Shown here piece by piece: positions 12,949 through 54,940 of a stretch of DNA of 64,000 bases. The stretch is from assembly GCF_902459735.1 (NCBI RefSeq), contig NZ_CABPRV010000003.1:620001-684000 (forward strand), in the 5' to 3' direction. The notes below the pieces were generated by a model. It searched no databases, was not told where the DNA came from, and saw only the letters and a program-made list of their open reading frames with translations. The first letter of the stretch is position 1; each line of letters opens with the position of its first letter. The DNA is from Pandoraea capi (GTDB taxonomy: Bacteria; Pseudomonadota; Gammaproteobacteria; Burkholderiales; Burkholderiaceae). Position numbers and translations under genes: made by a program.

Positions 12949-13968
12949 ATGAAGATTGCCGTATTCGGCGCAGGTGCCTGGGGCACCGCGATGGCGAGTC
13001 ACATGGCCGCACGCCATGACGTTGTCCTGTGGGCGCGCGATGCTGCGCTCGTGGCGCAATTGGCCGCCTCTCACGAGAATTCCGCTTATCTCCCCGGCTC
13101 CCCGTTGTCCCCCCGTCTGCGATTCGAATCCGACTTCGCGACGGCGATGGCGCACGGCTCGGGTGAGCACGCCTTGTGTGTGGCTGCCGTACCCGTTGCG
13201 GGTCTGCGTGCGCTGGCAGGGCACATGGCGCAGGCGCCCAATGCGCCGCAGAACCTGATCTGGCTTTGCAAGGGTTTCGAGGCGGATACCGGCCTGTTGC
13301 CGCATCAGATCGTTGCCGAGGTCTTCCCGGCGGTGGCCGGCGGTTCGTTGTCCGGGCCGAGCTTCGCGCGCGAAGTGGCGCAGGGTCTGCCTGCGGCATT
13401 GACGATTGCGAGCGCCGTACCGTCCCTGTGCGATCTGACGATTGCGGCCTGTCACTTCGGCGCGCTACGCATCTACTCGAGCGACGATCTCGTTGGCGTC
13501 GAAGTCGGTGGCGCCGTAAAGAACGTACTGGCGATTGCCACCGGTGTGAGCGACGGCCTGGGTCTCGGGTTGAATGCGCGTGCCGCGCTGGTGACGCGCG
13601 GTCTGGCCGAGATGACGCGTCTGGGCGTGGCCTTGGGTGGCAAGCCTGAGACGTTCATGGGTCTGGCCGGTCTGGGTGATCTGATTCTGACGGCGACCGG
13701 CGATCTGTCGCGTAACCGGACGGTCGGGTTGCAGTTGGCGTCGGGCAAGTCGCTCGACGAAGTACTCGCATCGCTGGGCCACGTTGCCGAGGGCGTAAGA
13801 TGTGCCCGTGCGGTACGCGATCTGGCGCGCGCCCATGGCGTCGAGATGCCGATTACCGATGCCGTATGCGCGACGCTGTTCGACGGGCTGCCTGCCCGCG
13901 CGGCCGTCGAGGCGCTGCTGCGACGCGATGCCCGCGCCGAGCGCGAGGACGACTCGACTCAGGGCTGA
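12949..13968 (+). CDS. gpsA: Glycerol-3-phosphate dehydrogenase (NAD(P)+)
   Basis: The 339-aa enzyme reduces dihydroxyacetone phosphate to sn-glycerol 3-phosphate for phospholipid synthesis. The N-terminal Rossmann motif [11 protein letters not shown] is at residues 5-15. Further family segments are [15 protein letters not shown] near residue 137, the catalytic lysine region [13 protein letters not shown] near residue 185 and [17 protein letters not shown] near residue 240. The C-terminus is slightly extended with charged residues. It follows secB by 63 bp in the same direction. Confidence 0.96.
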
Positions 13969-14024
13969 TCTTTCTCAGACGACGGTGTCCTGCCGTCGAC
14001 ACTCGCAACAAGGGAGTCCTACCC

Positions 14025-14555
14025 ATGTCGCAAGTTGTCCGTCTTCACGCCTCCCAGGGCGATATCACGCAATCCACGGTCGATGCCATCGTCAACGCCG
14101 CGAACGAATCGCTGCTCGGCGGTGGCGGCGTCGAAGGTGCGATCCATCGGGCTGCTGGCCCAGAACTCCTCGAAGCTTGCCGAAAACTCCAGGGTTGCCG
14201 CACCGGGCAGGCGAAGATCACGCCCGGATTTCGCCTGAAAGCCAAATTCGTCATTCACACGGTCGGCCCAGTCTGGCACGGCGGCGCGCATGACGAGCCG
14301 GCATTGCTGGCCAGTTGCTACCGGGAGAGCCTGCGTCTGGCCGCAGCGAATGGATGCCGACGTGTCGCGTTCCCGGCCATCAGCTGCGGCGTTTATGGCT
14401 ATCCGGCAGAGCTCGCCGTGCCGCTTGCCGTATTCACCGTGCGCGACGCGCTACCGCATTTCCCTGGCATCGAACACGTGGAGTTCGTATGTTTCGATGC
14501 GGCGATGTACGCGGCATACCAACGCGAACTCGCGAGTCAGGACCCGCCGGCGTAG
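14025..14555 (+). CDS. Macrodomain protein, O-acetyl-ADP-ribose deacetylase type
   Basis: The 176-aa protein is a single macrodomain that binds ADP-ribose and probably hydrolyses O-acetyl-ADP-ribose, as YmdB does. It shows [22 protein letters not shown] near residues 20-41, with the catalytic Asn and Asp positions of the class, and the loop ISCGVYGYP near residue 125. The ATG at 14025 has AGGGAG nine bases upstream; the longer open frame reaches back into gpsA. Its 3' end overlaps the convergent trmL gene by 19 bp. Confidence 0.9.
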
Positions 14556-15825: not shown

Positions 15826-16020
15826 GGGCACGGCGGTGAGCGTAAGGGCTTGGCTGAGAGGTGACCGGAGGACGGGCGGACGGGGAATGATTCCCTCTGC
15901 CTCGTGAACCCCATCGGTCGCGTTCATATGGCATCGAGGCACGTGGGGTGGCCGTTTGGCCGTGTCCGATGCATTCCGACAGCAGCGAGTATACTGCCGA
16001 CTCGCCTTTTCGCCTGTCCC

Positions 16021-16941
16021 ATGAAGCCTTCCGACGCTCCCCAAAACCCGTCCCCCGCGTTCTCCGCACGCTTTTTGCGCACCGCATTCGATCGTCGCGC
16101 CCCGAACTGGCAGGACGCCGATTTCCTGATGCGCGAGGTGGCGTCGCGACTGGCGAGCCGACTCGATTACATCAAGCTCAAGCCTCGGCGGGTGCTGGAT
16201 GCCGGTTGTGGCACGGGCGGCGATCTGTTGAACTTCGGCGAGCGCTATCCCGACGCGTATCGCGTAGGGCTGGACGCCTCCTATGCCATGGCGAAGGCCG
16301 CCGCATCGGCGGGCGCGGCCACCGGCTGGCGACGCCTGTTACGCAGTACGCCACCCTACGGCGTGGTGCAGGCCGATTTCTCGGCGCTGCCGTTTGCCTC
16401 ACGCTCGTTTGATCTCGTCTGGTCGAACCTCGCATTGCACTGGTACCGCGAACCGCATCGCGTCATTCCCGAGTGGCACCGCGTATTAAGTACCGATGGT
16501 TTGTTGATGTTTTCGGCCTACGGTCCCGATACGCTGCGTGAGTTGCGTGCTGCGTGGGCGGAAGTCGATGACGTTGCGCATGCGCTTGAGCCCACGGATA
16601 TGCACGATCTGGGCGACATGATGGTGGCGAGCGGATTCGATACCCCGGTGACCGACATGGAACGGCTCACGCTCACGTTCGAATCGCCCGACACACTGCT
16701 GCGTGACGTGCGGCTGCTGGGCGTGAATCCCCAGCCGGAACGTCGCCACGGCCTCACCGGGCGGGCGCGAATTGCGGCGCTGCGTGAGGCGTTGGAGCGT
16801 CAGCGTGGCAGCGATGGCACCATCGCGCTGACGTTTGAACTGGTCTACGGCCACGCCTGGAAGATTCCCGAAAAGACCGATGCCGCCGGTAATGCCGTCG
16901 TGCGTCTTCAGGACATCGGTCGCGGCGGCAGGCCTCGCTAA
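16021..16941 (+). CDS. SAM-dependent methyltransferase, BioC-like
   Basis: The 306-aa class I methyltransferase has the SAM motif VLDAGCGTGGDLL near residue 60, the acidic end of strand two in VGLDASYAM near residue 85 and ALPFASRSFDLVWSNLALHW near residue 125, a pattern typical of BioC malonyl-ACP O-methyltransferases. It may therefore open biotin synthesis, but no other bio gene is nearby and the substrate is not proven. The ATG at 16021 is the first start giving a family-like N-terminus. A TATACT hexamer near 15990 may be the promoter. A strong terminator closes the gene, isolating it from the accessory cluster. Confidence 0.82.
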   Translation: MKPSDAPQNPSPAFSARFLRTAFDRRAPNWQDADFLMREVASRLASRLDYIKLKPRRVLDAGCGTGGDLLNFGERYPDAYRVGLDASYAMAKAAASAGAATGWRRLLRSTPPYGVVQADFSALPFASRSFDLVWSNLALHWYREPHRVIPEWHRVLSTDGLLMFSAYGPDTLRELRAAWAEVDDVAHALEPTDMHDLGDMMVASGFDTPVTDMERLTLTFESPDTLLRDVRLLGVNPQPERRHGLTGRARIAALREALERQRGSDGTIALTFELVYGHAWKIPEKTDAAGNAVVRLQDIGRGGRPR

Positions 16942-16991: not shown

Positions 16992-17024
16992 GAAATCGGC
17001 GGAATTTCCGCCGATTTCTTTTTC
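16992..17024 (+). terminator. Rho-independent terminator before the accessory cluster
   Basis: The stem GAAATCGGCGG / CCGCCGATTTC with a tight loop is followed by TTTTT. It ends the methyltransferase transcript, so the cluster that follows needs its own promoter. Confidence 0.88.
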
Positions 17025-17086: not shown

Positions 17087-17210
17087 GGCTGTTCGATGCC
17101 TGTCGTCGCATAGCCGCAGCCTGCGTCCTACACGACCATGCAGGTATTCCGCGCGCCGCTGCTTCGCTTAAATATGGCTTCACGGCGTGCATGAACGCGG
17201 GACGAATGTG

Positions 17211-17264
17211 AGATCGATGCGGTATCGATGCGGTATCGATGCAGTATCGATGCAGTATCGATGC
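17211..17264. repeat. Array of 11-bp direct repeats with ATCGATGC core
   Basis: Four perfect-length copies of RGTATCGATGC (17221-17264) follow a degenerate 10-bp copy. The period of 11 bp is about one helical turn, so all copies face the same side of the DNA. The array ends 90 bp before the GTG start of the first cluster gene. The 11-mer GTATCGATGCA also occurs at 22074-22084, just upstream of the carbamoyltransferase gene. Confidence 0.85.
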
Positions 17265-17354
17265 GAGGGGGGATGCCTCTCATCACGAGGTCTGCGCAAT
17301 CCACATCATCCGCGTCATCGTGTCGCCGCTGGGCGAATTCTCGGGAGGTGGGGA

Positions 17355-18449
17355 GTGGGTGATCAGCACGAAACGTCGGCCGTGCCACAGTCAATCGAAG
17401 TTGCGCGAAGCGATCGTCTGCGCGACTTACCGAACCTGCGTGTCGATGCAGAGTTCCTGCGCCCGACGGTCCCGGTATTCACCACGATCGAAGGTCTTTG
17501 CGCCGCATCGGTGTCTCTCAAGATGGAGGGGCTGAACGCGGCGGGGTCGATCAAGCTCAAGACGGCGCTCCAATTGATCGACGATCTCGAAGCGACGCAT
17601 CGGATTCGTGCGGACACTTGCATTCTCGAATCGTCGTCGGGAAATCTCGGCGTGGCGCTCGCGTTGGTATGTGCCAATCGCGGCTATCGCTTTACTTGTG
17701 TGACCGACCCGAATACATCGCGACAGGCGGTGCGAACCATGCAGGCCGCAGGGGCTCGCGTCGTACGCGTCGATCGCCGCGATGCACAGGGCGGATATCT
17801 CGCGACGCGTATCGCATGGATTCGGGAGCAGGTCGCGCGAGACCCGCGTTGTGTCTGGGTCAATCAATACGCGAATCCGGCCAATTGGCGAGCGCATTTT
17901 CGATGGACGGCACCGGAGATCTTCTCGGCATATCCCGACGTCGATCATCTTTTCGTCGGCGCCGGCACGACGGGCACCTTGCTGGGATGTCTGCATTACG
18001 TACGCGCGCATCGCTTGCCGACCCGGGTCGTCGCCGTGGATGCGCAAGGCTCGGTCACCTTCGGTGGCTCGCCGGGGCTGCGTCGTATTCCCGGTCTCGG
18101 CACCAGTTGCCGTCCGCCGCTGTGTGAGCCGCCGGACGCCGAATCTCCCGATGCGATCGTCTATGTCCCCGAGGCCGACACGGTGCGGATGTGCCGCACG
18201 CTGGCACAACGCGGGTTGCTTATCGGCGGGTCCACAGGCAGCGTGTTGCGCGCGGTACAGGTGTCTTCGGCAGAGATTGCCGCGAGCGACACGGTCGTGG
18301 CCATCGCACCGGATATGGGAGACAAATACCTCGACACGATCTACGACCCGGACTGGGTAGCTTCCTGTGTCGAGGGATTCGACAAGGCGTCGGCGTCACC
18401 CGACGTGCCATCGTACGACGTTGAAACGGTTTCGCCCGCGCTGTCATGA
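17355..18449 (+). CDS. SbnA-like PLP enzyme, probable diaminopropionate precursor synthase
   Basis: The 364-aa protein belongs to the cysteine-synthase family of PLP enzymes. The lysine that binds PLP is expected in AGSIKLKTA (residue 67), the phosphate and substrate loop is SSGNLG near residue 100 and the glycine-rich GAGTTGTLLG is near residue 210. With an SbnB-like gene overlapping downstream, the closest functional model is SbnA, which joins O-phospho-L-serine and L-glutamate to N-(1-amino-1-carboxyethyl)glutamate on the way to L-2,3-diaminopropionate. I chose the GTG at 17355 because GGAGG sits six bases upstream. It is the first gene of the cluster and its stop overlaps the next start as ATGA. 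The specific substrate is inferred from gene pairing. Confidence 0.82.
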   Translation: MGDQHETSAVPQSIEVARSDRLRDLPNLRVDAEFLRPTVPVFTTIEGLCAASVSLKMEGLNAAGSIKLKTALQLIDDLEATHRIRADTCILESSSGNLGVALALVCANRGYRFTCVTDPNTSRQAVRTMQAAGARVVRVDRRDAQGGYLATRIAWIREQVARDPRCVWVNQYANPANWRAHFRWTAPEIFSAYPDVDHLFVGAGTTGTLLGCLHYVRAHRLPTRVVAVDAQGSVTFGGSPGLRRIPGLGTSCRPPLCEPPDAESPDAIVYVPEADTVRMCRTLAQRGLLIGGSTGSVLRAVQVSSAEIAASDTVVAIAPDMGDKYLDTIYDPDWVASCVEGFDKASASPDVPSYDVETVSPALS

Positions 18450-19492
18450 ACGCACTTCCGACACCGCAATTTCGCGTATTTACGGGTGAGCAGATCGACG
18501 CAGCCGTTCGCGACGGCAAGCGTGCCATCCTCGCTACCGTCGAAGCCGCGTATCGCGCGCACCACGCCGGACGCACCGTCAATCCGGAGAGTCAGTTTCT
18601 GCGATTCCCGCAGGCGCAGCGCAACCGCATCATCGCCTTGCCTGCACATATTCAAGGCGATAAGAGCGACGACGGCGATGAAAGCGAAGCGATCACGGGC
18701 ATCAAGTGGATATCGAGTTTCCCCGGGAACATCGAACGGGGTGTGCCGCGAGCTTCCGCTGTGCTGATTCTTAACGATGTCGCCACCGGTTATCCGATGG
18801 CGTGTATGGAAGCGAGCATCATCAGTGCGGCACGCACTGCCGCCAGCGCGGTTAGCGCGCTGAGGTGTCTCACGCGAGGCGACGCGGCTCGCGAGCGCCG
18901 TGTGGCGTTTATCGGCGCCGGTGTGATTGCACGTCACGTCGCCGCATGTTTGCCGCTCGCCGAACTGCCGATCGCAGAGGTTGTGGTCCACGACCTGAAT
19001 GCCGGGTACGCGCAAGCACTTGCCACCCGGATCGCAACGCAGGTCGGTCTCGAAACGCGTATCGAAACGTCGTTGGAGCATGCCATCCGGCAATCGGACG
19101 TGATCGTGTTCGCCACCACGGCGGCGTCTCCCCATCTGCACGACCCCGAGTGGTTCTCGCACTGCCCGGTCGTGTTGCATTTGTCGCTGCGCGACCTCGC
19201 GCCGTCGATCGTGCAGGCGTCCTGCAACGTCGTCGACGACATCGACCACTGCCTGCGGGCGATGACATCGCTGCATCTCACGGAAGTCGCCACCGGGCAC
19301 CGGCGCTTCGTCACGACCTCGCTGCCGCATCTGCTGTGCGGAGGAGAAGTGCCCACCCGTGATCGGCCCATTGTCTTTTCACCCTTTGGACTCGGCATTC
19401 TCGATATCGCCGTCGGGCGTTGGGTCTATGAACGCCTCGCTGACCGGCAGGCACCTGTTCCTCGTTTTTACTTTGATTTGCAACGCGCATGA
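18446..19492 (+). CDS. SbnB-like dehydrogenase, ornithine cyclodeaminase family
   Basis: The 348-aa protein has the ornithine cyclodeaminase/mu-crystallin fold. ITGIKWISSFPGN lies near residue 90, the NAD-binding motif VAFIGAGVIARH near residue 155, and the C-terminal half carries VDDIDHC and a family-like SPFGLGILDIAVG. In the siderophore pathway of Staphylococcus, SbnB oxidatively cleaves the SbnA product to L-2,3-diaminopropionate and 2-oxoglutarate with NAD+. The pairing here with an SbnA-like gene, with a 4-bp ATGA overlap on both sides, supports the same job. A true ornithine cyclodeaminase role is less likely because no proline or arginine pathway genes are near. Confidence 0.85.
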   Translation: MNALPTPQFRVFTGEQIDAAVRDGKRAILATVEAAYRAHHAGRTVNPESQFLRFPQAQRNRIIALPAHIQGDKSDDGDESEAITGIKWISSFPGNIERGVPRASAVLILNDVATGYPMACMEASIISAARTAASAVSALRCLTRGDAARERRVAFIGAGVIARHVAACLPLAELPIAEVVVHDLNAGYAQALATRIATQVGLETRIETSLEHAIRQSDVIVFATTAASPHLHDPEWFSHCPVVLHLSLRDLAPSIVQASCNVVDDIDHCLRAMTSLHLTEVATGHRRFVTTSLPHLLCGGEVPTRDRPIVFSPFGLGILDIAVGRWVYERLADRQAPVPRFYFDLQRA

Positions 19493-20967
19493 CCACAGCT
19501 TTCCTTCCCCCTTCCTGCTCCTCCACGTCTTCCTGCGATTCGAATTCGCCTGTCACCGATGGCTTCGCCGACGTCCTCGTCGGGCTGCAATACGGCGATG
19601 AAGGCAAGGCGAAGATTATCGATACCCTCGCCCCGGGGTATGACGTGATCGCTCGCTTTAACGGCGGGGCAAACGCCGGACACACCATCGATACGCCGCA
19701 GGGGCGCATTGCGCTCAAGCAACTCCCGTCGGGGGTCTTTCATCCGCACGCCATGCTGTACATCGGGTCGGGATGCGCTATCAATCCGTGGAAGCTGGCC
19801 GATGAGATCGAGCAATTGCGGCAGATGGGCATCTCGCTCGAGGGGCGTCTGCGAATCAGTGCGCGTGCAGCGCTGGTGCAGCCACATCACATTGCGATGG
19901 ACCGGCGTGGCAGTGAGACGATCGGTACGACGGGAAACGGTATCGGACCTTGCTATGCAGATCGCGCCTTGCGCGTGCGCAACGACACACGCGTCAACCT
20001 GATGCTCGGTGACCTGCTGGGCAACGAGGCGGATACCGTGGTGGCGATGCGGGAAATATTCACTCGCATGATCAATGCGGATGGCGGCACGTCGCCGTGG
20101 GTCGCCGAGATGTCGGACCTGCTGCTGGGTTTGCCGGGCGTGGCAAAACAGCTGCGGGCTTACGTCGAACCGGACCGCGCGTGGCTCACGACGCGTGTCA
20201 AGGCTGGAGCAAAGGTGTTGTTCGAAGGTGCGCAGTCCGTGCTGCTCGATGTGGTCGATGGCAGTCAGCCCTTCGTCACGTCGAGTCATACGGTACCGGC
20301 CTACGCGTATGTCGGCGGAGATCTCTCGCCCAAGTACCACCGGCGAACCATCGGTGTGGCCAAAGCCATCATGTCGCGCGTGGGACGTGGGCCGTTTCCG
20401 TCGGAGCTTGGAGGGGAACGTTCGGCGCAGTACTGTCACGACGCTTCGCAGTCGAAGACCGGTAAGTCCGAGGAGGCGTCGCGCTTCTCTCCGGACAAAC
20501 TGCTGCGTTCGAATGATCCGTTCGACGTGGGAACCGCATTGCGAATGCTGACCGGTGAGTACGGTACAGGAACCGGTCGACCGCGTCGTATCGGCATGCT
20601 GGATCTTGCGCAGTTGAGAGACGTCATCAAGATGCATGCCGTCGATTGTGTTTACCTCAACAAGGTGGATTGTCTGGCCCATTACCTGCACTCCGCCTAC
20701 CAGGGGGTGCCGATGCGTTTGCATCGTGATGTCGTCTCCGGCGACGTCATGCCGGACATCCTGATTTATCCGGGTTTGACCGAGCAGTCGCTGACCCTCG
20801 GGCGTGAGGGGAAAGTGGATGCCGTGATGAACAGCTTCATCGACTTTATCGAACGACACATCGGCGCGCCATTGGCAGGGCTGGGGCTCGGTCCGGAGCG
20901 AGCGAGCCTCGTATCGCTGGCGGAGCATTCACCGAAGCCAGTCGCGACGCTCAGCCCCCATGACTGA
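19489..20967 (+). CDS. Adenylosuccinate synthetase paralogue in a biosynthetic cluster
   Basis: The 492-aa protein is clearly PurA-like: QYGDEGKAK (residues 34-42) matches the GDEGKGK loop with catalytic Asp37 and Lys40, NAGHT (62-66) holds the catalytic His, TTGNGIGP matches the IMP loop, YLNKVD matches the guanine-recognition motif, and GTGRPRRIG matches the aspartate-binding loop. It differs from housekeeping PurA in length (about 430 residues is usual), with a 27-residue N-terminal tail and an insertion of about 35 residues before the aspartate loop, plus several loop substitutions. Normal PurA makes adenylosuccinate from IMP, GTP and aspartate. Here it could be an inhibitor-resistant copy protecting the producer or a ligase in the pathway. 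Its start overlaps sbnB-like by 4 bp and its end overlaps the N-oxygenase gene by 8 bp. Confidence 0.85.
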   Translation: MTTAFLPPSCSSTSSCDSNSPVTDGFADVLVGLQYGDEGKAKIIDTLAPGYDVIARFNGGANAGHTIDTPQGRIALKQLPSGVFHPHAMLYIGSGCAINPWKLADEIEQLRQMGISLEGRLRISARAALVQPHHIAMDRRGSETIGTTGNGIGPCYADRALRVRNDTRVNLMLGDLLGNEADTVVAMREIFTRMINADGGTSPWVAEMSDLLLGLPGVAKQLRAYVEPDRAWLTTRVKAGAKVLFEGAQSVLLDVVDGSQPFVTSSHTVPAYAYVGGDLSPKYHRRTIGVAKAIMSRVGRGPFPSELGGERSAQYCHDASQSKTGKSEEASRFSPDKLLRSNDPFDVGTALRMLTGEYGTGTGRPRRIGMLDLAQLRDVIKMHAVDCVYLNKVDCLAHYLHSAYQGVPMRLHRDVVSGDVMPDILIYPGLTEQSLTLGREGKVDAVMNSFIDFIERHIGAPLAGLGLGPERASLVSLAEHSPKPVATLSPHD

Positions 20968-21922
20968 CATGCCGATCAACAGGGACGCGCCTCCCCATGT
21001 TCCGGATCGTGGCGGCGCGCACGAGACACGCAGGTCGTGGCGGGAGGTCGCGGCCGTCACGCGCGCTACGGCCGAGGCGCCGTTTCCGCCATTGCTGCCG
21101 GGGCATCTGTTCTTCAACGTGTCGCTCATGCCCTACGCCACGCATCCAAAGGTCTGTGAGCGAGGACAGGCAACGCGGCAGCGGCTGAGCGCGTTGCGTC
21201 TCGAGGACTATCTGAACAAGACGGAACGTGTCGAGTTGCATATCGTCAACCGGGCCATCGAGCGGATGCTTGATGTGCCGGGAATGGCGTCCGTAAGCCG
21301 CGACGATTTGCTGGCGATCTATACCGATGAAGGTTTTCACACCTGGATGATGGCGCGGTTTCGGGTGCAGTTGCTTCGCGCGACGGGCTGCGCGCTCATG
21401 CTTCGGCCATCGCGGAGCGTGATGCAGGTGCTGGCGCTGTGTGAGGCGGTGCCGTGGAAGCATCGTGGCGTCGCCCTCGTGGCCGCAGCCATGGTGACGG
21501 AGACGTTGATTACCGGCACGTTGCGTCAGGCCGGTGCGGGTAACGCGATCTATCCCCCGGTGCGTACGTTGCTCGCTGAGCATGGTGCAGATGAGATGCG
21601 TCATCAGGCGGCGTTCGTGCGGTTCGGCGAGGCGTGGGTGCCGTCGCTATCTCGTGACGAACGGAGGGTGCTCGACGAACTGATCCCCGAGTTGTTGTTG
21701 GCCTTTCTTTCGCCCGAGCTGCCAGCATGGCAAGCGCATTTGTGCGAGGTGGGGCTGAGCGCGTCCGATGCCGATCAGGTGTTACGCGAAAGCATCGACC
21801 CGCTGGCGGTCGGGGTCCAGATGATGGAGGCGGCGCTGGTGCCTCGACGACTGTTCGAGCGCCTGGGACTGTCGTGTGCCGAACGGTTTGCGCAGCACGC
21901 GAGTCGCTGGCGGCCGCCTTGA
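20960..21922 (+). CDS. AurF-type diiron N-oxygenase
   Basis: The 320-aa protein fits the AurF family of non-heme diiron enzymes that oxidise amines to hydroxylamines, nitroso or nitro groups. The seven ligands known in AurF have counterparts at the same spacing: Glu92 (in RVELHIVN), Glu124 and His127 (in DEGFHTW), Glu181 (in VTETLI), then His208, Glu212 and His215 (in EHGADEMRH). Overall sequence is otherwise distant, so the substrate cannot be read off; the beta-amine of diaminopropionate or a derivative is my inference. A flavin reductase at the end of the cluster could supply electrons. It starts 8 bp inside the PurA-like gene. A 180-bp gap follows, the only sizeable gap within the operon apart from the 41 bp before the flavin reductase. 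Confidence 0.82.
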   Translation: MTDMPINRDAPPHVPDRGGAHETRRSWREVAAVTRATAEAPFPPLLPGHLFFNVSLMPYATHPKVCERGQATRQRLSALRLEDYLNKTERVELHIVNRAIERMLDVPGMASVSRDDLLAIYTDEGFHTWMMARFRVQLLRATGCALMLRPSRSVMQVLALCEAVPWKHRGVALVAAAMVTETLITGTLRQAGAGNAIYPPVRTLLAEHGADEMRHQAAFVRFGEAWVPSLSRDERRVLDELIPELLLAFLSPELPAWQAHLCEVGLSASDADQVLRESIDPLAVGVQMMEAALVPRRLFERLGLSCAERFAQHASRWRPP

Positions 21923-22102
21923 GGACGCGGCGTGTTCTTTCGTCGCGTCGCGATGCTCGTGAATATCGCCTGGAGACACGCTTTGGAAAGCGCCCACTCG
22001 CGGGCGAGACGACATCGCAGACGACGCAACGCGGCACGAGAGGCGGCGCCGTGAGCGGGACGTCGTCGCCAGTGTATCGATGCAAACGATCAGGAGGGAT
22101 GT
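21923..22102. promoter_or_regulatory. Internal 180-bp gap with a copy of the 11-bp repeat
   Basis: No gene is visible. GTATCGATGCA at 22074-22084 repeats the 11-mer of the array at 17211-17264 and is followed by AGGAGG (22092-22097), the ribosome site for the next gene. A second promoter or operator here is plausible. Confidence 0.4.
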
Positions 22103-23149
22103 GTGACTTGCCATTGGCTTGCCCCCGATTTGACGATGAGCGCGCCGGACTACCGCGCATTGATCGGCGCGGCGCTCGCTTTCAAGCGTCGATATCCGCT
22201 GCATACCGAGGGCGCGCTTCGGAACAGGACGATCTACTTCCTCTTCTACAACGCGTCGCTGCGCACACGCAGCAGCTTTCAGACGGGGTTGGCCAGACTG
22301 GGCGGAAATGCCATCGTGCTCGATCCGCACAATGGCATCTACACGCCCGCGCTCCCGGACGCGGAAATTCCGTACACGACGGAACGGGTGGCCGACGTGG
22401 CGCGCGTGTTGTCGTCATACGGCGATGCGATAGCCATACGTATGTACGGCGCGCCCGCCGGATGGGTCTACGGTGCAGCGCATCGACATCTCGAAGCTTT
22501 TGCCGAATCGAGTCAGGTGCCGATCATCAACATGGAGTGCGATCGCTTTCACCCATGTCAGGCGCTTGCCGACGCGATGACGTTACGGGAGCAATTAGGG
22601 GGGCTGACGGGGCGGCGTCTGTGTATCAGTTGGGCCTATTCGGGGAGTTGGCATAAGCCCGTAGCCGTGCCGCAGAGTCTGTTGCTGGCGGCTGTCAAAA
22701 CCGGCATGGATGTGACGCTGGCGCATCCCACGTCGTTTGCGCTCGACCCGCAGGTGATGATGGCGGCGGAACAATTTGCTGCGCAGACTGGCGCCCGTAT
22801 TCGGGTGACACATGATTTGCGCGATGGAGTCGCCGATGCGCATGCCGTCTATGCCAAGTCGTGGTGCAGTCTCGATCATTTGCCGAAACGTCACGGTGAC
22901 GCCGTTGACGAAGCCGCGATGTGTGATGCGTTCGAGCGGCATCGAGACTGGTGCATCGATGCAGACGTGATGCGCCTTGCCGCACCGGGTGCCGGATATC
23001 TTCATTGTATGCCGGTGGATCGCGGGCAGGAGGTGTCCGACGATGTGGTGGAGGGGGCATCGTCATGGGTGTTCCAGCAGGCGGCGAATCGACTCCACGC
23101 CCAAAACGCCGTGATGGCGCATCTATTGAATCCGGGGTGTCTCGCGTGA
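22103..23149 (+). CDS. Carbamoyltransferase-family enzyme, non-ornithine type
   Basis: The 348-aa protein is a member of the aspartate/ornithine carbamoyltransferase superfamily. NASLRTRSSF (residues 50-59) is the carbamoyl-phosphate motif in the SLRTR form seen in acetyl- and succinylornithine transcarbamylases, FHPCQALAD near residue 145 matches HPxQxxAD, and HCMPVDRGQEV near residue 293 stands where ornithine enzymes have HCLPAFH. It should therefore carbamoylate, or at least bind, an amino compound other than ornithine; diaminopropionate, giving a ureido amino acid, is a natural candidate here. The GTG at 22103 has AGGAGG five bases upstream. Its stop overlaps the next start as GTGA. A resistance role, as for ArgK in phaseolotoxin producers, is an alternative. 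Confidence 0.82.
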   Translation: MTCHWLAPDLTMSAPDYRALIGAALAFKRRYPLHTEGALRNRTIYFLFYNASLRTRSSFQTGLARLGGNAIVLDPHNGIYTPALPDAEIPYTTERVADVARVLSSYGDAIAIRMYGAPAGWVYGAAHRHLEAFAESSQVPIINMECDRFHPCQALADAMTLREQLGGLTGRRLCISWAYSGSWHKPVAVPQSLLLAAVKTGMDVTLAHPTSFALDPQVMMAAEQFAAQTGARIRVTHDLRDGVADAHAVYAKSWCSLDHLPKRHGDAVDEAAMCDAFERHRDWCIDADVMRLAAPGAGYLHCMPVDRGQEVSDDVVEGASSWVFQQAANRLHAQNAVMAHLLNPGCLA

Positions 23150-24450
23150 CGCCGCCGTTCTCGTATCGGTACGCCTGCGTGCGATGTGCCACGCCGCAGG
23201 ACTGGGGAGCGATTCGTTATCGCTGCGAAGTCTGCGGGCAGAACCTTCGCGTGGAACGCAAGACGGATACGGACTCGATTTCTGCTGCCGACATCGTCGA
23301 CGCATTTCGTGCGAGTCAAACGCACGGGATGTGGCGATACGCCGCGCTCCTGCCGGTCGAAGCGAGTTGGGGAAGCCGTTTGCGGGTCGGTGGAACGCCG
23401 ATGGTCGACTGCGGCGAGGATGACGGGGGCAGAGGTGGCAGCAGCCATGCCGGCGGTGGGGTTCGGCTCTGGGTCAAGGACGACTCGCGAAACCCAAGCG
23501 GTTCGCTCAAGGATCGAGCCACCGAACTGGTGCTCGCCGTGGCGAGACGGGCGGGGTGCGCGCAAGCCGTGACGGCGTCCACCGGCAACGCGGGGGCCTC
23601 GCTGGCGTGCATCGCGGCGTCGCAAGGCATGGAGGCGACGGTGGTCGTGCCGGTCAATACGCCGCGAGTCAAACTGGCACAGATTCGTGCTTACGGCGCC
23701 CGGCTGCTTGAGGTCGATGGCACTTACGACGATGCCGTGGAAGTCGCCGAGCGGCTGGCCGCCGATGCTCGCGTGTGTTGCCGCAACACCGGATTCAATC
23801 CGTTCACGCGAGAAGGCAAGAAAACCTGTGCGTTCGAGATTGCCGAGGCTTTCGACTGGCACGTCCCCGATTGGGTCGTCGTGCCAACGGGTGACGGCAA
23901 CATCCTGTCCGGCATCGCTGCGGGTTTTCTCGATCTCTACGCGTTGGGAATCACGTCCGCGGTGCCGCGATTGCTGGCCGCGCAGGCCAGCAGCTCGAAC
24001 AGCATCTCGCAAGACTGGCGGGAGAACGATGAGACTTGTGCGCTGCCTGAAGCGCCGACGGCCGTGACGCCCGATACCGTGGCGGACAGTCTGTCGGTGA
24101 GTCGTCCCAGAGACCACTTTGCGGCGCTGCAGGCGTTGCGCGTCACACGTGGCGCATGCATCGCGCTGGAGGATGCCCGCATCGTCGAGGCGTCGCGTTC
24201 GCTCGCGCAACGCTTCGGTCTATGGTTCGAACCCTCGACCGCCGCGGGATATGCGGCGCTGCATGCGTGCCTCGCAACGGGGCGCATCAAGGTCGGGGCA
24301 CGTGTCGTGTTGCTCGGCACGGGGAGCGGGATGAAATCGCCGCAGGGCTTCGACAGCGTCAGCGCGCAGCCGGTGACGGGGGGCGTCGCGCGGGTGCCGG
24401 AGCGTCCGCCTGCTGAACGACATGCCAACGACCCGAGGGAGCGCACATGA
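23146..24450 (+). CDS. Threonine-synthase-like PLP enzyme
   Basis: The 434-aa protein starts with a small cysteine pair motif (CVRC..CEVC, residues 10-33), as in the zinc-ribbon-like head of some threonine synthases. The PLP lysine lies in NPSGSLKDRA near residue 120, STGNAGAS near residue 145 is the phosphate loop and VPTGDGNILSG near residue 245 is the glycine-rich loop. Family members do beta or gamma replacement or elimination on amino acids; the substrate here is unknown. I chose the GTG at 23146 because it overlaps the previous stop (GTGA); a longer frame from 22951 lies inside the carbamoyltransferase gene. It ends in an ATGA overlap with the oxidase gene. No homoserine or threonine genes are near, so a pathway role is likelier than threonine synthesis. 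Confidence 0.8.
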   Translation: MTPPFSYRYACVRCATPQDWGAIRYRCEVCGQNLRVERKTDTDSISAADIVDAFRASQTHGMWRYAALLPVEASWGSRLRVGGTPMVDCGEDDGGRGGSSHAGGGVRLWVKDDSRNPSGSLKDRATELVLAVARRAGCAQAVTASTGNAGASLACIAASQGMEATVVVPVNTPRVKLAQIRAYGARLLEVDGTYDDAVEVAERLAADARVCCRNTGFNPFTREGKKTCAFEIAEAFDWHVPDWVVVPTGDGNILSGIAAGFLDLYALGITSAVPRLLAAQASSSNSISQDWRENDETCALPEAPTAVTPDTVADSLSVSRPRDHFAALQALRVTRGACIALEDARIVEASRSLAQRFGLWFEPSTAAGYAALHACLATGRIKVGARVVLLGTGSGMKSPQGFDSVSAQPVTGGVARVPERPPAERHANDPRERT

Positions 24451-25460
24451 GACACGTCGTGCCGGACGGACGTGAGCACGTCATCGTCGTCGGTGCGGGC
24501 GTCAGCGGATTGACGACCGCCGTCGCCATGTCCCTCGCGGGGTGTCGCGTCACCATTCACGCGGCGGAGGGCCCGGCGCAGACGACATCGGCGTTAGCGG
24601 CCGCGATCTGGCATCCGTTCTACCAGGCGCCCGATCTTGTCTATCTGGCCCGAGCTCGACATACCTACGAGACGATGCAGCGGCTGTCGACGGATAAGGC
24701 GTCGGGCGTCGGCATGCGATCGCTGACCGAGTATTTCCGTCACGACGCCGGCGCGCCGTGGTGGGCCGATTGCGCGAGGGATCTCAAGCGGTTGCCGGAT
24801 GACGACGTGCCGGCGCGCTTCGCCTGCGCTTACCGGATGGACGTACCGGTGGCCGATACGGGGACTTACCTTCGATACCTGATGCACATGTTCCTCGAGC
24901 TGGGCGGCAATTACGTCCAGCGTCGCGTCGACGATGTGACGAGGCAACTCGGCGAGGCGGACATCGTCGTGAACTGCTGCGGCTACGGCAGCCGTCAGTT
25001 CGGTGACGACGCCTTATCGTTGTCGCGCGCCATCGTCCTGCGTGCCCGCCGTGACGATGCTGTGCGTGGATGCTTCATCGATGACTCGGATCCTGCGGCA
25101 CCCACCTACATCGTGCCGCGATGCGACGACATCGTGTTGGGCGGTACCGCCGATCCGGGGCTGACGTCCACGGTGATCGGGGCGCATCAGATCGAAGACA
25201 TCGTGCGTCGCTGCACCGGGCTATGCGAGGGCGTTGCGGCGTTGCAGGTGATCGACGCGCGTATCGGATTTCGTCCGATGCGTCATGTGCCGCGTGTCGC
25301 GCGTGACGATCAGCATCCGGGGCTGTTCCACAACTACGGTCATGGCGGCGGTGGCTTCACGTTGTCGTGGGGGTGTGCGAACGATGTCCTGCGGCTGGCC
25401 GGTATGACGTCTGCCGATGCGCCACGAACATCCGCAGGCAGCGACGGGGCACGGACATAA
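24447..25460 (+). CDS. D-amino-acid oxidase family flavoenzyme
   Basis: The 337-aa FAD enzyme shows the nucleotide motif VIVVGAGVSGLTTA at residues 12-25 and the D-amino-acid oxidase signature near the C-terminus: GFRPMRHVPRV then HNYGHGGGGFTLSWG near residue 300. The family oxidises D-amino acids, or in some cases glycine or sarcosine, to imino acids with hydrogen peroxide release. In this cluster it could oxidise an amine intermediate or recycle a by-product; the substrate is unknown. There is no signal peptide. It overlaps the preceding gene by 4 bp and is followed after 41 bp by the flavin reductase gene. Confidence 0.86.
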   Translation: MRHVVPDGREHVIVVGAGVSGLTTAVAMSLAGCRVTIHAAEGPAQTTSALAAAIWHPFYQAPDLVYLARARHTYETMQRLSTDKASGVGMRSLTEYFRHDAGAPWWADCARDLKRLPDDDVPARFACAYRMDVPVADTGTYLRYLMHMFLELGGNYVQRRVDDVTRQLGEADIVVNCCGYGSRQFGDDALSLSRAIVLRARRDDAVRGCFIDDSDPAAPTYIVPRCDDIVLGGTADPGLTSTVIGAHQIEDIVRRCTGLCEGVAALQVIDARIGFRPMRHVPRVARDDQHPGLFHNYGHGGGGFTLSWGCANDVLRLAGMTSADAPRTSAGSDGART

Positions 25461-25501
25461 GCAGACGCAGGAAACCAGACGCAGGAACACAGGGAGAACC
25501 G

Positions 25502-26146
25502 ATGGAACTGGACCCGTCGACACTCGACGAAGCGAGCATTTACAACTTCATGATGAGCACGATCCTGCCGCGCCCGATTGCGTGGGTGAGTACCGTCGAT
25601 GATCAGGGGCAATCGAATCTCGCCCCATATGCCTACTTCATGGGCGTGTGCTGTGTGCCGATGACCGTGCTGTTCTGTCCAGTCGTGCCGCCGCCGCCGA
25701 AGCGTAAAAAGGACACGTTGCGCAACATCGAAGTGGTGCCGGAGTTCGTCGTGAACGTGGCCAGCACTTCATGTATCGACGCGGTCAATCTGTCGGCGGC
25801 ACCCTTGCCGGCGGGGGAGTCGGAGTTCGACCTGACGGGGGTAACGCCGGTGCCGTCCTCGCGTGTGCGTCCGCCGCGCGTGAAGGAGGCCGCCGTCGCG
25901 TATGAATGCCGCGTGCGCGACATCATCGAGATCAGTGCTGCGCCGGGTGGGGGATGGGTGGTGCTCGGTACGGTCGTCGCGGCACATGTCGACGATGCCC
26001 TGCTCGATCCCGTCACCTGCCATGTGGATCTGCACGCGCTGCGTCCCGTGGGACGTCTCGGCGGCGGGGCCTTTGTGAACGCGGCGAGCGACACGTTCAC
26101 GTTGACACGCTACAAGACGCTGGCCGATCTGGCGGCTCGCAAGTGA
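25502..26146 (+). CDS. Flavin reductase-like, FMN-binding split-barrel protein
   Basis: The 214-aa protein matches the flavin-reductase-like family: STILPRPIAWVSTVD near residue 17 and QSNLAPYAYFMGVC near residue 36 form the FMN site, and NVASTSCIDAVNLSAA lies near residue 85. Such proteins reduce FMN or FAD with NAD(P)H or bind FMN directly. Here it is a reasonable electron donor for the diiron N-oxygenase, though that partnership is inferred. The ATG at 25502 follows AGGGAGA. It is the last gene of the cluster and its 3' end overlaps the convergent regulator gene by 50 bp. Confidence 0.84.
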   Translation: MELDPSTLDEASIYNFMMSTILPRPIAWVSTVDDQGQSNLAPYAYFMGVCCVPMTVLFCPVVPPPPKRKKDTLRNIEVVPEFVVNVASTSCIDAVNLSAAPLPAGESEFDLTGVTPVPSSRVRPPRVKEAAVAYECRVRDIIEISAAPGGGWVVLGTVVAAHVDDALLDPVTCHVDLHALRPVGRLGGGAFVNAASDTFTLTRYKTLADLAARK

Positions 26147-26978
26147 TGGGCCGGGATGCGGGGGCGAGGTCGTCGTCGAGCAGCCCATAATCGCTGGCCA
26201 ACTTCGCGGCATGGTGTCGGCTCGATACGTCGAACTTGCGCATGACGCTGCGCAGATGGAAGACGACGCCGTGCTCGGAGAGAGTGAGAATGCGTCCGAT
26301 CTCCCACGACGTCTTGCCTCGCGCCACCCATCTCAGGCACTCGCGCTCGCGCGGCGTGAGGACGGGCGCACTGCGACGTGCGGCCTCGCGTTGCACGAGG
26401 CGCCACACCGCTTCGTGGACGTGCGTGGCCAGCGCGACGCCGGCGTGCTTCATCCACGTCTGCATGCAGTCGTGCGTCGTTGCATGCGCGTGAGGCTGAC
26501 GCAGACGCGAAAGCGGCGTGGGCGTGGCAAGCGGCAGCGACGGTGTGCGCCAGGGCGAAGACAGGCTCAACGTTCCCAAGGCGCCGGATGGCGTGTAGAC
26601 CGGATACGTCACGCCGAAGCGCAATCCCGCCTTGCGTTGTTCATCGAGCAGTCGCCGGGTTTCGGGGGACGCATACATCGACGGCTTCCACTCCACCGGC
26701 GTCAGTTGACGTGCGGCCAGGACGAGTGCCGGATCGATGGCGGCGAAGTGTTGCGCGTCGTAGTGCGTTTGCCAGGCCGGCGGAAGATTCGCGAGACGTG
26801 GCGTCGACGTGGTGCCGTCCGGCAACGGAAATTGACCGCGATAGCAGAAGTAGCGCTGTCGCAACGCGCCGCACAGCGAAGGCAGCAACGTGCGCAGCGT
26901 GTCGAAATCGGCGGCTGCCGATAACGCGTTCAGGCCATCGGCAAACGAGCGAGGAGGGAGACGGCGCGTGGCTTGCAT
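26097..26978 (-). CDS. LuxR-type quorum-sensing regulator (no luxI in window)
   Basis: The 293-aa protein has an N-terminal autoinducer-binding domain and a C-terminal LuxR helix-turn-helix (LTPRERECLRWVARGKTSWE, then a recognition helix ending VMRKFDVSS). Residues that contact acyl-homoserine lactones in TraR/LasR are present in order: Trp and Tyr in AWQTHY, Asp-Pro in IDPAL, Trp in PVEWKP and the downstream Gly. It should therefore respond to such a signal, but no synthase gene is in the window. The start is uncertain: ATG at 26978 or 27062. It is convergent with the eight-gene cluster and is its most likely controller. A 26-bp dyad lies upstream at 27088-27113. Confidence 0.85.
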   Translation of the reverse strand: MQATRRLPPRSFADGLNALSAAADFDTLRTLLPSLCGALRQRYFCYRGQFPLPDGTTSTPRLANLPPAWQTHYDAQHFAAIDPALVLAARQLTPVEWKPSMYASPETRRLLDEQRKAGLRFGVTYPVYTPSGALGTLSLSSPWRTPSLPLATPTPLSRLRQPHAHATTHDCMQTWMKHAGVALATHVHEAVWRLVQREAARRSAPVLTPRERECLRWVARGKTSWEIGRILTLSEHGVVFHLRSVMRKFDVSSRHHAAKLASDYGLLDDDLAPASRPITCEPPDRPASCSVST

Positions 26979-27087
26979 GGCATGACGATGTAGGGAACAT
27001 GTTTCGCTTGTAGCATGTGTCTCATGAGCGCGCGCATCGTCGGTTGCTGAGTCGGAGTGCAAGGCGTCGCCGTGCTGTCGCTATCGC

Positions 27088-27603: not shown

Positions 27604-28086
27604 GTGACGGCGATGCTCGCAGCCTCTTCTTCCGATGCCGGATCGGTGACGAAGGAATGGACGCACAAGCGTAACTGCGCGACATCGCCGCGCCAGTTTG
27701 TCCTGTTCTACCTGTCGTTGGCCGCCGTTTCATTGGGTGTTGCCTTGATTGCGGCGTGGCGCGGTGGGTGGTTGGTCTTGCCGTTCACAGGCCTGGACTT
27801 GCTCGTGGTGGGCGTTGCGTTCGTCATTCATGCCCGGCATGCCACAGATTACGAGGTCATTCGGTTGTCGCCCGTGAGCCTTGTGGTCGAGCAACGTTCA
27901 GCACAGAGGTTGACGCAATTCGAGTTCAATCCCCGCTGGGTGCGCATCGACATCGAGAAGCCGCCGCGTACGCGCATTGTCTTGCGCTCGGGTAGCCGCT
28001 CGGTCACCGTCGGTGCCTATCTTGCGCCGCATCGCCGCGAAACGTTTGCGCGCGAGCTGCGCCGTTGTCTTGCCCAACAGGCCTGA
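27604..28086 (+). CDS. DUF2244-type membrane protein leading the cox operon
   Basis: The 160-aa protein has two membrane helices (about residues 30-75) in its N-terminal half and a soluble C-terminal part with VEQRSAQRLTQFEFNPRWVR, typical of DUF2244 proteins encoded beside cytochrome oxidase genes in proteobacteria. Its function is not established; a role in oxidase assembly is inferred from position. The start may be GTG at 27604 or ATG at 27613; neither has a clear ribosome site. coxB begins 43 bp after its stop, and the operon promoter lies just upstream. Confidence 0.8.
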   Translation: MTAMLAASSSDAGSVTKEWTHKRNCATSPRQFVLFYLSLAAVSLGVALIAAWRGGWLVLPFTGLDLLVVGVAFVIHARHATDYEVIRLSPVSLVVEQRSAQRLTQFEFNPRWVRIDIEKPPRTRIVLRSGSRSVTVGAYLAPHRRETFARELRRCLAQQA

Positions 28087-52844: not shown

Positions 52845-53988
<1,144 letters not shown>

Positions 53989-54031
53989 TTCCACGTCGTT
54001 CGCCATGCGTCGTTCGTTGCGACGCAAGGAC

Positions 54032-54069
54032 AAAACCCCGCAGCGTGTTGCCACACTGCGGGGTTTTTT
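54032..54069 (+). terminator. Terminator after coaD
   Basis: The 12-bp stem AAAACCCCGCAG / CTGCGGGGTTTT is followed by TT. Its A-rich left flank would also allow it to end the leftward solute-binding gene. Confidence 0.85.
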
Positions 54070-54136
54070 GTTGCGCGCGCGTTTAAGCGCATTTACTTAA
54101 GTTCGATTACCTAACGCGTTGCGAGCGTCGCAAGCA

Positions 54137-54940
54137 TCAGAAGCCCGTCGGTAACGGTGCCTGCATCCATTTGACCGACATGGCGTTCAGACGACCATCT
54201 GCCTTCGCCTTGTCGATGATCGCGTTCAGCTTCGCCACCATCGCCGTCTCTCCCTTGCCGACGCCGATGTAGCAGGGCGTTTCCTCGACCGGGAATTTCA
54301 GATCGAAGGCGCGTTGCTTGCTCTTCTCGCGCACGGCGTTCGCGACGATGTTGCCCAGCGTGACCAGTTGCACCTGACCGGCCAGATACGACGCCGCCGT
54401 GGCGTTGTTGTCCTCATAGCGCTTGATGCTCGCGCTTTGCGGCGCAACGGCCGTGAGCGCCAGATCCTCGGTCGAGCCACGCGTCACGGCGATGGTCTTG
54501 TTCGCGAGGTCGGCGGGTGTCTTGATGACGATGTCCTGCGGGCCGTACACGCTCTTGGGGAACGGCGCATAAGCCTTCGTGAAATCGATGGCCTTCTCAC
54601 GCTCGGCATTCTTGCCAAGCGACGAAATGACGACGTCGACCTTACCGGTGGTCAGATACGCGATCCGGTTCGTGCTGATGACCGGCACGAGTTCGACTTT
54701 CGCACCGATCTCCTTGCCGATCAGCTCCGCCATGTCGATGTCGTAGCCGTGAACCTTGAGGTCCGTACCGATCGCGCCGAACGGCGGGAAATCCTGCGGG
54801 ATGGCAATGCGGATGACGCCGGTCTTCGCGATGGTTTGCAGCACGTCGGCATGGGCGACGCCCACCAGACTTCCCAGCGACGCAACGACCACCGCTTGCA
54901 GCATCCGGCGACGGCCGGCTTGATGAAGGAACGCACGCAT
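54137..54940 (-). CDS. Amino-acid ABC transporter substrate-binding protein, orphan
   Basis: The 267-aa protein has a signal peptide (residues 1-32, cut near AHA) and a type II periplasmic-binding fold: IRIAIPQDFPPFGAIG near residue 43, GYDIDMAELIGKEIGAKVEL near residue 65 and GKVDVVISSLGKNAEREKAI near residue 98 match family 3 (polar amino-acid) binding proteins. No permease or ATPase gene is adjacent, so it must serve a transporter encoded elsewhere or act as a sensor. The ligand cannot be assigned. Confidence 0.85.
   Translation of the reverse strand: MRAFLHQAGRRRMLQAVVVASLGSLVGVAHADVLQTIAKTGVIRIAIPQDFPPFGAIGTDLKVHGYDIDMAELIGKEIGAKVELVPVISTNRIAYLTTGKVDVVISSLGKNAEREKAIDFTKAYAPFPKSVYGPQDIVIKTPADLANKTIAVTRGSTEDLALTAVAPQSASIKRYEDNNATAASYLAGQVQLVTLGNIVANAVREKSKQRAFDLKFPVEETPCYIGVGKGETAMVAKLNAIIDKAKADGRLNAMSVKWMQAPLPTGF

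Follow-up and report, generated by a model that had tools for sequence, protein, structure and literature searches.

A cluster of eight genes, here called A to H, lies beside the gene for a LuxR-type regulator, R, in the genome of Pandoraea capi (5.85 Mb). The analysis covers a stretch of 64,000 nucleotides (the window; contig NZ_CABPRV010000003.1, positions 620,001 to 684,000), in which the eight genes span positions 17355-26146, all on the plus strand. The cluster starts with an SbnA-like gene (A, 17355-18449, start codon uncertain), predicted to encode the synthase of N-(1-amino-1-carboxyl-2-ethyl)glutamic acid (ACEGA) that takes the first step towards 2,3-diaminopropionate (Dap), and an SbnB-like gene (B, 18446-19492), predicted to encode the ACEGA dehydrogenase that releases L-Dap. 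These are followed by genes for a predicted ligase that resembles a diverged PurA (C, 19489-20967), a predicted AurF-type diiron N-oxygenase (D, 20960-21922), a transcarbamylase of the knotted type (E, 22103-23149), which includes N-acetylornithine transcarbamylase (AOTC), N-succinylornithine transcarbamylase (SOTC) and YgeW, a threonine-synthase-like pyridoxal phosphate (PLP) enzyme (F, 23146-24450), a flavin adenine dinucleotide (FAD) enzyme of the D-amino-acid-oxidase type (G, 24447-25460) and a flavin mononucleotide (FMN) protein similar to flavin reductases and 2-nitrobenzoate nitroreductase (H, 25502-26146). R (26097-27062) is on the minus strand and converges on H.

The genes are tightly packed. 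Overlaps of 4 bp join A/B, B/C, E/F (GTGA) and F/G, C and D share 8 bp, and gaps of 180 bp and 41 bp separate D from E and G from H. The 41-bp spacing follows from the likely start of H, which is the ATG at 25502 instead of 25367; F most likely starts at the GTG at 23146. A preliminary description of this DNA, made from the letters alone, had listed eight genes, seven of them overlapping or tightly spaced. All were found where it had placed them, and their predicted families were borne out by Pfam and NCBIfam, but it left unlisted the convergent LuxR gene and a promoter box at 17126-17145.

Conservation and distribution

The genus was sampled with 32 Pandoraea genomes, and the locus was compared between the window and 27 fetched neighborhoods. 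D is present in 28 of the 32 genomes (27/31 among those of good quality). All 27 other loci contain the eight genes and R in identical order and orientation, and in the 28 genomes that carry D the cluster always has a methyltransferase gene on one side and the cox operon on the other. Identity to the window ranges from 47% (D of P. terrae) up to 94% (H) for the eight genes and goes down to 42% for R. Nonsynonymous divergence (dN) is 0.03-0.23 versus a synonymous divergence (dS) of 0.73-1.62 for each of the eight genes, with six pairwise comparisons per gene, and in A, D, E, F, G and R the inspected residues do not vary in any alignment row that covers them. Because of this constant order, the purifying selection and the invariant residues, the eight-gene cluster is a real, selected unit.

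The preliminary description had proposed a single pathway, to be judged by whether the eight families occur together in other neighborhoods. They do so in 27/27 other loci, and this strict co-occurrence, together with the purifying selection, supports the proposal. Nothing was found for the opposite view of a loose collection of paralogues without a common pathway, and the shared order in all 27 other loci, the overlapping genes, the purifying selection and an empty site in three genomes make its probability practically negligible.

Four Pandoraea genomes lack D. In these, D and C (1e-75) were sought genome-wide and the other genes within the fetched 9.9-19.9 kb; C was not found at 1e-75 in any of the four. 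Three have an empty site, with the methyltransferase gene beside the cox genes. The fourth is a reduced genome of 1.2 Mb, of which the fetched 19.9 kb contained neither a cox gene nor any of the nine genes. A tree built from the methyltransferase flank unites the three empty-site genomes in a single deep branch. It places the reduced genome next to P. terrae, but on a long branch, so that this position is unsure. The tree requires two changes for the presence or absence of the cluster, which under a midpoint root, itself a drawing choice, reads as one gain and one loss, the latter in the 1.2-Mb genome.

The left flank, the methyltransferase gene (15904-16941, plus strand), and the right flank, a gene for a DUF2244 membrane protein (27604-28086, plus strand) followed by coxB and coxA, are constant. 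A gene for a macro-domain protein is found upstream of the left flank at 13800-14555. A few loci differ in detail. The A and B homologues of one (L060, genome G417) share a single open reading frame, a possible natural fusion. Another (L053, genome G415) has two pieces of the PurA-like match about 1.3 kb apart and a split ThrC-like match as well, and the match to E is split in L055 and L060. The split matches in these three loci may reflect an impaired cluster in a few strains.

Outside Pandoraea, no similar cluster was found in the genome samples searched, to which strict cut-offs were applied. The AurF profile at 1e-15 matched only the own genome among 274 genomes of the class; at 1e-8, it matched 27 Pandoraea genomes and three weak others in a family sample of 249. 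Likewise, only the own genome was recovered with C at 1e-75 in a phylum sample of 398 and with E at 1e-70 in an order sample of 389. A GTDB scan returned 18 loci, all from Pandoraea, using patterns that were drawn from Pandoraea and could miss distant relatives, and plasmid records held no match of at least 60% for E, F or G. Weak AurF matches were seen in 6/399 Burkholderiales genomes besides the own. The surroundings of seven of nine genomes with weak AurF matches (L099 and L101-L106, thus without G177 and G601) gave no match to A-C or E-H at an E-value of 1e-4. Those of L106 match the LuxR protein at 32%, and those of L101 gave no match of any kind, despite the AurF match in the 399-genome search. 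AurF-like relatives on plasmids (two of six records, both from Streptomyces) were set aside; they adjoin asnB, major facilitator superfamily (MFS) and PqqD genes, with no Dap genes annotated.

The predicted enzymes

The formation of L-Dap by SbnA and SbnB is established family chemistry, and enzymes of this type also make the Dap of viomycin and zwittermicin A. A matches the SbnA model TIGR03945 at 373 bits (cut-off 349.95) and B the SbnB model TIGR03944 at 377 bits (cut-off 326.9), both above the equivalog cut-offs, in agreement with the Dap synthesis that the preliminary description had assigned to this pair. The PLP lysine of A is present in 28/28 loci. Its best solved relative is SbnA (5d87), and CmnB is also among its solved relatives.

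D matches the AurF family PF11583 at 65.5 bits (cut-off 29.6). Among solved structures, it is closest to AurF and 5hyg, the latter deposited as an uncharacterised protein. The metal-ligand signature of the diiron N-oxygenases includes a histidine that is said to mark these enzymes (PMC13061610). The corresponding seven ligands of D, matched by spacing (E89 or E92, E124, H127, E181, H208, E212 and H215), are kept in all 28 loci, the N-oxygenase-specific histidine included, and with this full set the earlier prediction of an N-oxygenase stands. By NF045603, D is not a 4-aminobenzoate N-oxygenase (28.7 bits versus a cut-off of 620). The dnfABC genes of “Dirammox”, which encode the AurF-type DnfA, were considered as a model and rejected because their partner genes (aminotransferases, serine hydroxymethyltransferase, a 2Fe-2S protein, a glutamine amidotransferase and a kinase) differ from those of the cluster.

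E is a carbamoyltransferase (PF02729 and PF00185). It has the carbamoyl-phosphate motifs SLRT, HPCQ and HCMP, equivalent to the SxRT, HPxQ and HxLP-type motifs of the superfamily with Met in place of Leu. SLRT and HCMP are found in 27/28 rows, the other row having a gap, and the H, P and Q of HPCQ in 28/28. The best solved relatives of E are AOTCs, which belong to the knotted group. It fails the AOTC cut-off (272.5 versus 288 bits), and an alignment read by eye places Thr, Tyr and Glu at the positions of Glu92, Trp77 and Lys302, so that these AOTC residues are absent. It is also far under the YgeW cut-offs (125 versus 453 and 123 versus 500). Dap transcarbamylases (DPTCases) are recognized by an HDLP motif and a (T/S)RWQTTG sequence in the 240’s loop (PMC4581275); E lacks both, having HCMP for HDLP and VYAKSW for (T/S)RWQTTG. 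Within the knotted group, N-acylated ornithine is the substrate of AOTC and SOTC, and YgeW handles the 2-ureido group of 2,3-diureidopropionate (PMC12507026). Given these knotted-type relatives and the failed DPTCase motif tests, the substrate of E is more likely to be an N-substituted Dap than free Dap. The preliminary description had suggested that the amino acid is carbamoylated and/or N-oxidised. An N-oxygenase is backed by the ligands of D, but a carbamoyltransferase acting on Dap itself is not supported, as E fails the published motifs.

F is a member of PF00291 that is closest to the threonine synthases and scores under the threonine synthase cut-off of TIGR00260 (155.7 versus 167.1 bits). 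Its PLP lysine is present in 27/28 rows, and the remaining row is gapped. G has the D-amino-acid-oxidase fold (PF01266), with D-aspartate and D-amino-acid oxidases as its nearest relatives, and keeps Y221 and R276, which we take to serve the carboxylate site, in 28/28. H has the flavin-reductase fold (PF01613), and the three solved structures that it matches best are those of the reductase component of nitrilotriacetate monooxygenase, of an FMN-binding protein and of a 2-nitrobenzoate nitroreductase. In line with the preliminary description, no nonribosomal peptide synthetase (NRPS), polyketide synthase (PKS) or transport gene is found among the eight by Pfam and NCBIfam, and the free modified amino acid that it had thought probable is a possible product.

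A knotted transcarbamylase and a fold-II PLP enzyme in the company of Dap recall the reductive uric-acid pathway (PMC12507026). The cluster might on that account be a catabolic or nitrogen-salvage operon that runs a YgeW/YgeX-like Dap or ureido-Dap route for nutrition, with C and D removing toxic intermediates. However, SbnA and SbnB make Dap and do not consume it, F best matches threonine synthases and not Dap ammonia-lyase, and no carbamate kinase or YgeY-type peptidase was found among the eight genes by Pfam. The diiron N-oxygenase and the link to a LuxR3 regulator, described below, would also be unusual for catabolism. A nutritional role is thus very improbable.

The preliminary description did not address what the PurA-like protein C, with its remodelled amino-acid site, would do in the cluster. 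C has the adenylosuccinate-synthetase fold (PF00709) and falls under the curated purA equivalog cut-offs (297 versus 402 for NF002223; 263.8 versus 395.55 for TIGR00184). E. coli PurA (locus L155) was aligned with 24 sequences, a dozen each from the 28 cluster copies and from the sister proteins. Residues D13, K16, N38, H41, T129, R143, Q224, T239, R303, K331 and D333 (E. coli numbering), which presumably serve catalysis, guanosine triphosphate (GTP) binding, inosine monophosphate (IMP) binding and phosphoryl transfer, are kept in all 24. At the two positions that we take to belong to the amino-acid site, R131 is replaced by Asn and T300 by Gly, again in 24/24. R131 is the telling change since the housekeeping PurA of the window genome (L042) keeps R131 yet has Val at 300. 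C and the sister proteins also have a 6-residue insertion beside R143 and another of about 36 residues before the aspartate loop.

The sister proteins, 48-53% identical to C, were found in 17 of 248 genomes, 6 from Pandoraea and 11 from other Burkholderiaceae; in the samples searched, C is the only one of the eight with such near relatives outside the genus. Twelve sister loci were compared, namely those of 11 of these 17 genomes and of a Caballeronia plasmid (L041, L107, L141-L147 and L152-L154). In all 12, the neighbors are an AraC regulator, RidA, a Pyridox_ox_2 protein, an MFS transporter and an alpha/beta hydrolase, the transporter being further off in L154. The sister gene of the window genome itself is located on contig C1 at 53339-54727 (L041 8843-10240, minus strand).

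C could be a self-resistance copy of adenylosuccinate synthetase. The product would then mimic L-aspartate and poison PurA, and the altered aspartate site of C would keep purine synthesis going. Hadacidin, which is N-hydroxy-N-formyl glycine, offers a precedent. It is a known inhibitor that competes with aspartate (PMC6136348). Such a role is consistent with the retained GTP and IMP residues and the changed amino-acid site of C, as well as with the tolerance-like makeup of the sister loci, where the MFS transporter, RidA and the FMN-binding-type Pyridox_ox_2 protein recur in 12/12. On the other hand, every locus has gene C at the center of the operon, where in the window it overlaps the genes on either side; resistance alone would not call for an insertion of about 36 residues or for the altered loops; and C fails the purA equivalog cut-offs. 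Self-resistance is a possible explanation, though we lean against it.

The LuxR gene and the promoter box

A luxR3 “solo” gene next to the cox I and II genes and a membrane protein gene has been described as exclusive to Pandoraea, with P. thiooxydans lacking it (Chua et al. 2019, PMC6691176). R fits this gene by location and motifs. It has the same place by the cox genes and the membrane protein gene, retains the nine signature LuxR residues in 28/28 loci and shows the same genus restriction; no difference was found. The main text of PMC6691176 makes no mention of flavin reductase, adenylosuccinate or “diaminopropi”, so the adjoining cluster seemingly went unnoticed there. No target of luxR3 was found described in the literature searched.

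Upstream of A is a lux-box-like imperfect palindrome of 20 bp, TCCTACACGACCATGCAGGT (17126-17145, plus strand), and 22 bp past it a candidate -10 element, TTAAAT (17168-17173, plus strand). The box is nearly invariant in 27/28 loci and still recognisable in P. terrae, and so recognisable in 28/28. TTAAAT, which is absent from the sigma-70 consensus matches of the region, is present in 27/28 loci and reads TCTAAT in the outlier L069. The center of the box is about 44 bp before the inferred transcription start, near the usual place of the lux box in LuxR-activated promoters. The exact TCCTACACGACCATGCAGGT site occurs once in the whole genome, and the four clusterless loci have no site with up to 3 mismatches. 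Compared with the lux box of Vibrio fischeri, the box has 14/20 matches in the window, a score equalled by 6 of 1000 shuffles of the 450-bp stretch around it, and it is the best lux-box match of this stretch in 26/28 loci. The box is most likely bound by the adjacent LuxR3 solo, which would act as an activator.

Between the methyltransferase gene and the cluster promoter is a terminator-like stem-loop with a T-tail (16992-17018, plus strand), a pattern match only, with a 12-pair stem; two terminator-like sites were found in the region versus 6.9 in shuffles. An 11-bp tandem repeat, ATCGATGCGGT, is present in 4.8 copies at 17213-17265, upstream of A, and one GTATCGATGC is found at 22074-22083, upstream of E. 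The 10-mer has 5 exact copies in the window versus 0.19 expected, and L043 has one TATCGAT in the gap between D and E. The repeat was considered as a regulator site and dropped, as TATCGAT is found upstream of A in the window only.

Proposed pathway and known systems

The current thinking, to which we assign a probability of roughly 0.55, is that the cluster is a quorum-sensing-linked biosynthetic operon of Pandoraea whose product is likely an N-oxygenated, Dap-derived antimetabolite. A and B would make L-Dap from O-phosphoserine and glutamate. The chemistry after Dap is what we infer from the enzyme families. D would oxygenate a nitrogen of Dap to the hydroxylamine, nitroso or nitro level, which gives an aspartate-shaped amino acid. 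C would use GTP to join that amino acid, in place of aspartate, to a partner, or else it would replace an inhibited PurA; the ligase is preferred. E would carbamoylate an N-substituted Dap intermediate, as its knotted type suggests, and F, G and H would contribute PLP, FAD and FMN chemistry on the intermediate, in an order that is not fixed. Transcription would proceed from the promoter with the lux-box-like site, bound by the adjacent LuxR3 solo, and the product would be a small antimetabolite directed at the aspartate or purine metabolism of neighbors.

Several observations weigh against this scheme. With up to 2 mismatches allowed, the genome has 11 box sites versus 4 for a control pattern, so near matches of the box are partly background. 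The conserved site resembles the lux box only moderately: it scores 13-14/20 in the loci where no other site matches better, and L055 and L069 have their best lux-box match at another place. The window genome has two LuxI-family matches, both partial and low-scoring, at 37 and 29.6 bits, which pass the 24-bit cut-off; the same search of 14 control genomes gave 0 matches. Activity of N-acylhomoserine lactones was reported for just four of nine type strains (PMC6691176). The cluster has no exporter gene. The sister proteins of C are encoded in operons that lack Dap genes, in other genera too, so the subfamily has a use apart from Dap, and the chemistry of C itself may be independent of Dap.

Nitro analogues of aspartate are substrates of PurA, and their products inhibit adenylosuccinate lyase; no paper with the term carboxy-2-nitroethyl was among those listed in a literature search, and the papers listed for nitroalanine deal with unrelated subjects. 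A bolder and decidedly speculative version of the proposed pathway would make C a new amino-acid-to-nucleotide ligase whose substrates are IMP and an N-oxygenated Dap that is isosteric with aspartate, such as beta-nitro-L-alanine or N-hydroxy-Dap. The resulting analogue of adenylosuccinate would be one that PurB, the next enzyme of the purine route, cannot handle. Once switched on through an orphan quorum receptor, the operon would thus turn serine, glutamate and IMP into a purine-nucleotide antimetabolite. The sister operons would put the ligase to some other use or serve tolerance.

No published description of the cluster was found in searches on Pandoraea gene clusters, luxR3, and gene clusters with Dap and adenylosuccinate synthetase, and nothing on such clusters was found in PMC9355198. 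The pandorabactins were called the first characterised natural products of Pandoraea by their authors in 2025 (PMC12144892).

The ham, mgo and pvf clusters, known for fragin and valdiazen, likewise combine an AurF-type N-oxygenase with quorum-sensing control (PMC5878181). This likeness suggests another product, either a metal-binding small molecule (a hydroxyurea or hydroxamate) or a diazeniumdiolate signal like fragin and valdiazen. The ham cluster, with its AurF-type enzyme, is down-regulated in a Burkholderia cepR mutant (PMC5878181), and the cluster described here has a LuxR gene beside it. However, the present cluster is without the NRPS-like HamD, HamA and HamE, and no NRPS, cupin, HamA-type protein or siderophore transport gene was found among its eight genes. 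A separate ham-like operon also exists elsewhere in the window genome, and a metal binder or signal of this kind is unlikely. That operon, on contig C10 (L100 5754-11409, plus strand), encodes a DUF3050 protein, a second AurF-type protein and an NRPS-like protein with adenylation, thiolation and reductase domains. D is about 22% identical to its AurF-type protein. An operon of the ham/mgo type was already reported from Pandoraea in the fragin paper (PMC5878181).

Other close parallels are found among systems that use Dap. In the ureido-Dap modules of viomycin and zwittermicin A, Dap is carbamoylated to ureidoalanine (PMC4581275). Here, in contrast, E is of the knotted type without HDLP and (T/S)RWQTTG, NRPS and PKS are missing, and PurA-like, AurF-like, D-amino-acid-oxidase and FMN enzymes are added. 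In the L-alanosine clusters of Streptomyces (aln/ala), Dap is proposed to be the precursor and to be N-hydroxylated. The N-hydroxylation is hypothesised for an acyl-CoA-dehydrogenase-type enzyme and the N-N bond for a cupin protein, and the nitrogen comes from CreD/CreE or nitrate-nitrite reductases (PMC11705231). None of these markers (the acyl-CoA-dehydrogenase-type enzyme, the cupin AlnA, AlnG, CreD/CreE and the nitrate-nitrite reductases) is found among the eight genes by Pfam and NCBIfam. YgeW, which acts on a ureido-Dap compound, shares the knotted-transcarbamylase type with E and differs in its catabolic direction and setting (PMC12507026, PMC4581275).

The locus unites a receptor gene with a conserved lux-box-like site and a biosynthetic operon, and the three are present or absent as a set. 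Their co-location makes the target of LuxR3 and the product of the genus experimentally approachable questions. PurA itself shares its fold, GTP motifs and IMP residues with C, which differs by R131N, T300G, the insertions and the sub-cut-off scores; should C turn out to ligate a new amino acid, this would be a new use of the adenylosuccinate synthetase fold.

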